A stretch of DNA of 64,000 bases, taken from contig VXNL01000064.1 of assembly GCA_009840635.1 (NCBI GenBank), positions 1 through 64,000 on the forward strand, given 5' to 3'. The notes under the pieces were generated by a model. It was not told the DNA's origin. It was given only the letters and a program-made list of their open reading frames with translations, and ran no database searches. Positions 8,199 to 10,160 of the stretch are shown here, piece by piece. A program made the position numbers and the translations under genes. Source of the DNA: Acidobacteriota bacterium. Its GTDB lineage: Bacteria; Acidobacteriota; Vicinamibacteria; Marinacidobacterales; Marinacidobacteraceae. Position 1 is the first letter of the stretch; the number at the start of each line of letters is the position of its first letter.

Positions 8199-9512
8199 TC
8201 AGGGGGTCCCGAGCTTGCGGAAACGCTGGCGGTAGCTCCGGACGGTCATCGGGGTGCGGACTCCGTCACGGAGCACTCCGAGGTCCAACGGCTCCCCGGC
8301 AGTGACGTTCAGCCGCAGATAGACGAGACAGTCCCAGACCGCCGGGTCCGATTCGACCCCGTCCACGGAGTAGATGACGTCTCCCGGCCGGAGGTCGTGG
8401 AGCTCGAGCACCCCGGCGCGGGCGTTGACGCGGGTGACTTCACAGGCAAAGCCTTCGGGATCGAAGCCCAGGTCGCGCTTCCGCGCTTCGGTGAGCGGCG
8501 CGGTGGTCAGATGGGTCTGGGGATCGATCGACCAGTAGCGGTAGGCGATGTCGGAAACCCACCACTGCAGCGGCAGTCCGATCACGAGCTCCACCGGCCC
8601 CGCCCCCGGCCGCTCCACGGTCAGGGGGAGGCGCGTCGCAGTGCGGTCGAGGCCGTCGTAGGCGTAGAGCAGGTCCCCGAACGTCAGGACCCGGCTTCCG
8701 GCGAAGTTCACGATGGCGTCGCCGGGGAGCAGTCCGGCGGCCATGGCCGCTCCCTCGGCGCGCTCGACCACGAGGCCCCGCGGCACGTCGAGGTGGATGC
8801 CGAGGTCCCGGATGTCGGGTGAGCGGAACATCTCGCGCCGCTTGTCGAGGGTTCCCTCCCGCTCCCTCGCAGCGGCCCGGTAGTCCCCGATCATGTGGCA
8901 CTCGACGCAGCGCCCCCGCTCCAGCTCCTGCACGCGCAGGCGGTCCAGCTCGCGGGCGAAGAAAGGCGGCGGACGCGGACTTGCCGGCAACTCGCCGGCG
9001 AGCCATCGCTCGTGCTCCTCGAGGCCCGCCCGGAGCGCGAGGGTGAAGCTGTCGAGGTCCAGGTACGAGTCCGCCGAAACCGCGTCGCGCCCGCCGTAGC
9101 GCAGGTAGATCTGCTCGTCAGGACTGACGATGAAGAAGTAGATCGAGTGGTGCCAGTCGAAGTCGAACAGGCCCACGTCGATCCGGTTCATCCGCGTGAT
9201 GCGGGCGCGGACGAACCGTTCGAGCAGACGTCCCCTCTCGGAATCTCGCGGCGACAGCACCACCTGTGCGTCGAATCGTCGGCCGGTGATTCAGGGGGAG
9301 CAGCGGAACTCGACCAGGAGCGGCCGTCCCGTCTCTTTCGCCAGCGCCAGCGCCTGCTGGTAGTTGCCGAGCCACTCGAGCGTGTCGTCCTCGAACGGCT
9401 GGCCTTGAGCCGCCGACGAATGCCCCGAAGCGCTCAGCCCGACGAGCAGGCCGGCGGCGGCGAGGAGCGGAGCGCCGCGTCTCACCAGTTCATGTTGTTG
9501 CATGACAGTCAT
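8199..9512 (-). CDS. Candidate selenoprotein: thioredoxin-CxxCH-PDZ-PDZ, in-frame TGA at codon 74
   Basis: Read through one TGA (9293-9291), this frame encodes 437 residues. Codons 1-73 give a signal peptide (LLAAAGLLVGLSASG) and a thioredoxin start, GRPLLVEFRCSP. The TGA is codon 74, so the motif reads C71-S-P-TGA, the second redox position of CxxC. The frame then runs open to 8199. It contains the rest of the thioredoxin fold (VGLFDFDWHHSIYFFI), a haem-like CVECH motif (Cys202, Cys205, His206) and two PDZ-like domains (about 235-310 and 345-430, with LLPGDAIVNFAG and LRPGDVIYSVDG). The ATG at 9512 overlaps the stop of the upstream gene by 4 nt. A SECIS-like hairpin follows the TGA. I infer selenocysteine; a nonsense mutation or base error is the alternative. 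An automated call would start at the GTG at 9263 and lose the redox motif. Confidence 0.7.
9252..9273 (-). promoter_or_regulatory. SECIS-like hairpin downstream of the in-frame TGA
   Basis: In the mRNA, the hairpin starts 18 nt after the UGA. CGAC and GCAC form the 5' side, the loop is AGGUG, and GUGC, a bulged U and GUCG form the 3' side, giving eight pairs, all Watson-Crick. Bacterial SECIS elements need a hairpin close behind the UGA with a G near the start of the apical loop. E. coli fdhF has the loop AGGUCU and a bulged U that SelB contacts. Here the loop also starts AGGU, but the bulged U is on the 3' side. An outer stem AUCACC/GGUGGU next to the UGA is an alternative fold. Confidence 0.55.
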
Positions 9513-10069
9513 TCCTCCGCGCTTTGTACCGCCGCGAGAGACTCGGGGTCGACGGAACGCCCGCCGCTCTCCGTCACCGGGACCCGCAGCCCGTCCACCA
9601 TCGCGCACAACCTGTCGGTGCAGGCCTGCGCATCCACCTGGACCCAGCCTCCGGGATCCGCGCGCAGGACGCGGGCCGCAAAGAACGAGCGGTCCGCGAA
9701 GCCCCAGGTGTACCAGCGGAGTTCGGGTTGGGAGAGCTCGGTGGGAGCCGTCTGCCGCCACGACGCGTCCAGTTCGATCCCGGGTGAGGGCGTGATCACC
9801 GTCGGCAGCTCGGTGTCCGGCCTGGCTTTCCCCGTCACCTCTCGCGCGCGCTGCACATTGTCCATCGCGTAGGTGTGCCAGCCCGGCTCGTGCCAGACGT
9901 CGATGATGAGCCAGTCGCCTTCGGTCCGCGCCGCGTAACTCACGGCGAGGTTCTCGCCCAGCCAGACCTCCTGGCGCGGCGGTTCCGCGGTTCCCTGGGC
10001 GCCGGCTGCCGCGGCGATGCCGGCGAGCATCAGCGCCGCCAAACCGGTTGTGGGGATCAGGTTCTTCAT
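9509..10069 (-). CDS. DsbD-alpha-like periplasmic redox protein
   Basis: This 186-residue exported protein (signal MKNLIPTTGLAALMLAGIAA) resembles the N-terminal domain of DsbD, a periplasmic thiol carrier. Supporting features are the WHTYA region and the cysteine pair QACTDRLC near the C-terminus, placed like the DsbD-alpha CxxxxxC pair. It lacks the membrane and thioredoxin domains of full DsbD. The gene overlaps the thioredoxin/PDZ reading frame by 4 nt (ATGA), so the two are translationally coupled and may pass electrons between their thiol or selenol sites (inference). I start at the ATG at 10069 because the signal peptide begins there; the frame is open 15 codons further upstream. Confidence 0.7.
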   Translation of the reverse strand: MKNLIPTTGLAALMLAGIAAAAGAQGTAEPPRQEVWLGENLAVSYAARTEGDWLIIDVWHEPGWHTYAMDNVQRAREVTGKARPDTELPTVITPSPGIELDASWRQTAPTELSQPELRWYTWGFADRSFFAARVLRADPGGWVQVDAQACTDRLCAMVDGLRVPVTESGGRSVDPESLAAVQSAEE

Positions 10070-10160
10070 GGAATCGCTCCCGGTTCGTTCCGTGTCGCAG
10101 AAATCGTACGGCATTGGTGTCTACGTCGGGAATGACGCGGGCTCGACTCGATGGAAGACC

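Follow-up and report, generated by a model that had tools for sequence, protein, structure and literature searches.

A 2026 review of selenoproteomes (PMC13188914) includes the family NF041199, with its CxxU motif, and cites a 2008 ocean-metagenome study. A 2022 review (PMC9312934) has an entry 'PDZ domain-containing protein, Thioredoxin_7, CxxU'. The ocean-metagenome paper (PMC2398784) reported a CxxU family, with two Sec and 12 Cys members, under the name 'putative secreted serine protease MucD'. Judging from the citation, this is presumably the NF041199 family. The passages on the family in these three papers make no mention of a DsbD-alpha-like partner protein.

Parts of the locus described below also resemble two systems outside this family, the DegP/DegQ proteases of the HtrA type and the thiol-disulfide relay protein DsbD. 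The alpha and gamma domains of DsbD are natural redox partners, as established for the protein of E. coli.

We analysed a window of 64,000 nucleotides, positions 1 to 64,000 of contig VXNL01000064.1 from an Acidobacteriota metagenome assembly. It holds a real selenoprotein gene, a member of the catalogued family. The new content is a conserved DsbD-alpha-like partner gene and the evidence for a hairpin downstream of the UGA. The features are listed in Table 1.

Table 1. Features of the selenoprotein locus, in coordinates of the window.
Feature	Coordinates	Strand	Remarks
Trx7/PDZ selenoprotein gene (NF041199 family)	8199..9512	-	437 codons from 9512
In-frame TGA, predicted selenocysteine (residue 74, second position of CxxU)	9291..9293	-	TGA in 16/16 homologous genes
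bSECIS-like hairpin, CGACGCAC[AGGUG]GUGC.U.GUCG	9252..9273	-	Eight pairs, one bulged U
Partner gene, putatively secreted DsbD-alpha-like (DsbD_N) protein, CxxxxC (ACTDRLC)	9509..10114	-	Upstream, co-directional
Thioredoxin_7 domain, residues 46-107	9192..9377	-	PF13899, 3.4e-7, over cut-off
CxxCH motif, C202-V-E-C205-H206	8895..8909	-	Invariant; might bind c-haem or serve as a metal/thiol site
Two PDZ domains, about residues 241-312 and 335-424	8241..8792	-	Pfam and fold

Gene, domains and family

An earlier note on this DNA had described two open stretches on the minus strand in one frame, separated by a single TGA at the second redox position of a thioredoxin motif. Re-reading of the frame 9512-8199 bore this out: codon 74 is the lone internal TGA and the only interruption, and it falls in C71-S-P-TGA. 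The surrounding residues are LLVEFRCSP-[TGA]-ITGRRFDAQVV, and the frame ends in a TGA stop at 8201-8199. As the note had expected of automated annotation, a standard ORF list cuts the gene into two separate ORFs, 10190-9291 and 9263-8199.

There are two possible starts. The start at 9512 is overlapped by the stop of the upstream gene (9511-9509). An alternative ATG at 9503, beginning MQQ, has GGAGG 10 nt upstream. This second ATG is probably the true start, because GGAGG precedes it and MQQ is common to the relatives; the ORF would then have 434 codons.

The note had also proposed that thioredoxin-fold sequence continues past the TGA and that a thioredoxin domain, CxxCH and two PDZ-like domains are combined in one protein. 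Both points were confirmed. The Thioredoxin_7 match spans the TGA, and the remainder of the fold runs on to about residue 171. The CxxCH motif lies between the Thioredoxin_7 domain and the PDZ stretches, for which two Pfam models (PF13180 and PF17820) scored over their cut-offs. In sequence and structure comparison, the PDZ tandem is most like those of DegP and RseP. It is thus akin in sequence and fold to the DegP/DegQ proteases; the selenoprotein, however, lacks their trypsin-like protease domain and has the thioredoxin domain in that place. When its predicted model was used in a structure search, the best non-PDZ fold match of the thioredoxin domain was 3f9u (TMt 0.61), the C-terminal domain of a cytochrome c biogenesis-related protein. 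The predicted structures used here and for the partner protein were built on 8-12 sequences and had mean pLDDT values of 71 and 77.

One claim of the note did not hold. It had regarded the layout as unfamiliar among selenoproteins, but the NCBIfam model NF041199, 'Trx7/PDZ domain-containing (seleno)protein' (trx7_PDZ_seleno), already covers the thioredoxin domain, CxxCH and PDZ. The protein matched this model with 369.5 bits (cut-off 300), residues 46-424 aligning with positions 2-388 of 390. Since the match is over the full length and the entries in the two reviews cited above (PMC13188914, PMC9312934) list the family, the layout is not new. The score fell by 22 bits when CxxCH was replaced with Ala and by 7.5 bits for a replacement of either C71 or U74, which indicates that the model expects CxxCH and the redox pair. 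The positions of CxxU, CxxCH and PDZ are all as the model expects, and the selenoprotein itself shows no difference from the family.

Partner gene and possible redox relay

The product of the gene directly upstream begins with a signal-like stretch and has a cysteine pair, ACT-x-x-LC, that is invariant; the stop codon of this gene and the start of the selenoprotein gene touch or overlap (ATGA). The Pfam model DsbD_N matched all eight aligned members of this partner family weakly, with every score below the curated cut-off. A sequence search of the PDB with the partner profile gave no match. A structure search of the PDB with the predicted partner model placed DsbD-alpha at all of ranks 1-17; 1vrs, the complex of DsbD-alpha and DsbD-gamma, appeared in this search.

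Among 13 loci with enough flanking sequence, 12 have the partner gene next to the selenoprotein gene. In one genome (L058/G007), none was found near the selenoprotein gene. It lies upstream in close relatives and downstream in distant ones, so that the order is inverted. The linkage has therefore outlasted rearrangement, which argues for a joint function of the two proteins. In two of the more distant genomes, the partner is fused to EF-hand repeats (L063:7287-8609 and L064:5231-6580).

These observations invite comparison with DsbD. As in DsbD, a gamma-like thioredoxin fold is encoded along with an Ig-like alpha-like domain with CxxxxC, and each seems to have an export signal. In DsbD, alpha, beta and gamma are parts of one membrane protein, whereas here the alpha-like and gamma-like parts are on separate proteins encoded by two genes and the membrane beta domain is absent at the locus. 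The selenoprotein further differs in having Sec for the second Cys and in carrying the PDZ tandem and CxxCH, and some of the partners have EF hands.

Because the thioredoxin domain matches a cytochrome c biogenesis-related thioredoxin and because alpha and gamma are natural partners, we propose a Sec-dependent periplasmic relay of the DsbD-gamma/alpha type, to which we give about an even chance. SelB and tRNA-Sec would insert selenocysteine at the UGA of C-S-P-U, guided by the hairpin just downstream. The exported selenoprotein would then act as a periplasmic thiol-disulfide (selenenylsulfide) oxidoreductase, its DsbD-gamma-like Sec-thioredoxin domain passing electrons to or from the DsbD-alpha-like product of the neighbouring gene. 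The PDZ tandem probably binds clients and would hold or select them. The CxxCH segment would be a second redox site or a c-haem site: since cytochrome c assembly genes exist in the genome, it may carry c-haem, or it may act as a second thiol site. That the proteins are exported, which way the electrons flow, that the alpha-like and gamma-like parts pair, and what PDZ and CxxCH do are all points that we infer.

The electron source of such a relay could be a CcdA-type membrane protein encoded elsewhere in the genome. A CcdA-type DsbD_TM protein is encoded beside a TlpA-like thioredoxin in the source genome; no linkage of a membrane electron donor to the selenoprotein locus was seen. At L079 (G000:C58), genes for a CcdA-type protein, a small CxxCH cytochrome and a TlpA-like thioredoxin adjoin one another, a possible source of electrons for periplasmic thiols.

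The same protein could instead be a redox-regulated PDZ chaperone or a c-type haem protein, an explanation that is possible but on the doubtful side. In its haem version, CxxCH would be the haem site and the Sec-thioredoxin domain a haem-handling thiol reductase. This would agree with the invariance of CxxCH and its place in the NF041199 model, with the cytochrome c assembly proteins encoded in the genome, and with PDZ proteins of the MamP/MamE type among the weak family matches. However, the MamP match does not extend beyond the PDZ part, one CxxCH by itself does not prove haem, and the linked partner is DsbD-alpha-like. A more elaborate form of the DsbD-like relay, a two-gene, selenium-dependent split module with c-haem in which the redox state of haem is coupled to the reduction of periplasmic disulfides, is conceivable but improbable.

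Reading of the in-frame TGA

The codon at the position of residue 74 was TGA in every homologous gene found (16 genes in 15 genomes, about 57-98% identity), and no gene among the 16 examined had Cys there. The set covers all ten genomes of the bacterial family, two further genomes of the order, one of which has two copies, one further genome of the class and two genomes of a second class. All 16 genes read FRC-x-P-TGA-(I/V)-(S/T)-GRR. No Cys homologues were found in the genomes sampled (193 of the class, 396 of the phylum and 149 of the second class). The weaker matches that were aligned were rejected as family members: some were PDZ proteins of the HtrA type, and others were thioredoxin-like, with a TCTNCRW motif and much longer frames.

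Two of the homologues deviate elsewhere. In L063:6001-7266 / L066 (G469), a second in-frame stop, TAG, directly follows ECHMIGDY, which points to a damaged copy or to faulty assembly. In L036 (G181), the selenoprotein frame follows the family pattern only to about residue 258; the tail beyond resembles the EF-hand part of the partner gene read out of frame, which suggests a deletion or misassembly.

The source genome of the window (3.58 Mb, 92% complete) encodes the machinery for selenocysteine. A tRNA-Sec with a UCA anticodon scored 69.7 bits (gathering score 47). SelA (494 bits), SelB and SelD were all over their curated cut-offs, and SelB has an intact open frame with the C-terminal winged helix typical of SelB. 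Twelve of the class's 13 TGA-bearing genomes gave a tRNA-Sec match; the one without is a MAG of 75% completeness. Across the class as a whole, 150 of 193 genomes had tRNA-Sec, some with two matches. Coding for selenocysteine is thus common throughout this class of Acidobacteriota and, because so many of its genomes have tRNA-Sec, co-occurrence of the gene with tRNA-Sec is weak evidence when taken alone. The conserved TGA codon itself is strong evidence for a selenocysteine reading.

The hairpin starts 18 nt past the UGA, and its apical loop begins 25 nt past it. The loop is AGGUG or AGGUU among the homologues, which agrees with the bSECIS criterion of a G in the loop. Across ten divergent sequences, pairing was seen in 96.3% of cells, compared with 91% in shuffles and at most 65% with the partner strand slid. 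The outermost pair changed from C-G to U-A in 4 of the 10 sequences, a double change at two synonymous third positions, and the covariation score was reached by none of 500 shuffles.

Codon usage pointed to the same place. Codons 82 (GCA) and 84 (GTT), each with about 8% usage, ranked as the top two in the gene for anomalous conservation, and both are located inside the hairpin. Eight of the top ten anomalously conserved rare codons lie within codons 75-95. Since the sequences are related, neither the pairing counts nor the codon counts are independent trials, and the rest of the same gene served as the control. A simple count of invariant codons at the hairpin in seven homologues gave no excess. 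Synonymous shuffles of the 48 nt after the UGA were about as stable as the real sequence (mean z about 0.1), and a gain in stability was seen for the apical 24 nt only (z about -1.9). We read the apical hairpin as the bSECIS.

UGA might alternatively be recoded to Cys or Trp, or translation might restart and yield two polypeptides. A GTG start is indeed on hand 10 codons downstream (9263). A restart there would, however, cut the thioredoxin fold after its first strand, recoding conflicts with the use of TGA as terminator in both the upstream gene and the selenoprotein gene, and either would leave the downstream hairpin and the Sec machinery unexplained; we consider both very improbable. A gene broken by a nonsense mutation or a sequencing error at the TGA, as the metagenomic source and the other damage in two relatives (the extra TAG in L063/L066, the frameshift in L036) might suggest, is ruled out for practical purposes by conservation, the same TGA being carried by all 16 genes from independently assembled MAGs in a frame that elsewhere stays open and conserved.

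Selenocysteine at the CxxU position is thus strongly supported, as a prediction from the machinery, the conservation and the bSECIS-like hairpin. The earlier note fared well here. It had argued that chance nonsense would hardly strike this position, and every homologue has its TGA at the same codon. It had named in-frame TGA in homologues as support for selenocysteine, and this was found throughout. It had held that absence of selB or selC from the genome would speak against its reading, and all four of selA, selB, selC and selD are present. Taken jointly, selenocysteine at residue 74 and membership in NF041199 are highly probable.

Meaning for the family

A selenoprotein that a plain ORF search breaks in two at its UGA is confirmed here in Acidobacteriota MAGs of a Sec-rich class. 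For an orphan selenoprotein family that has been known chiefly by its domain layout, the linked DsbD-alpha-like protein suggests a specific function that can be put to the test.
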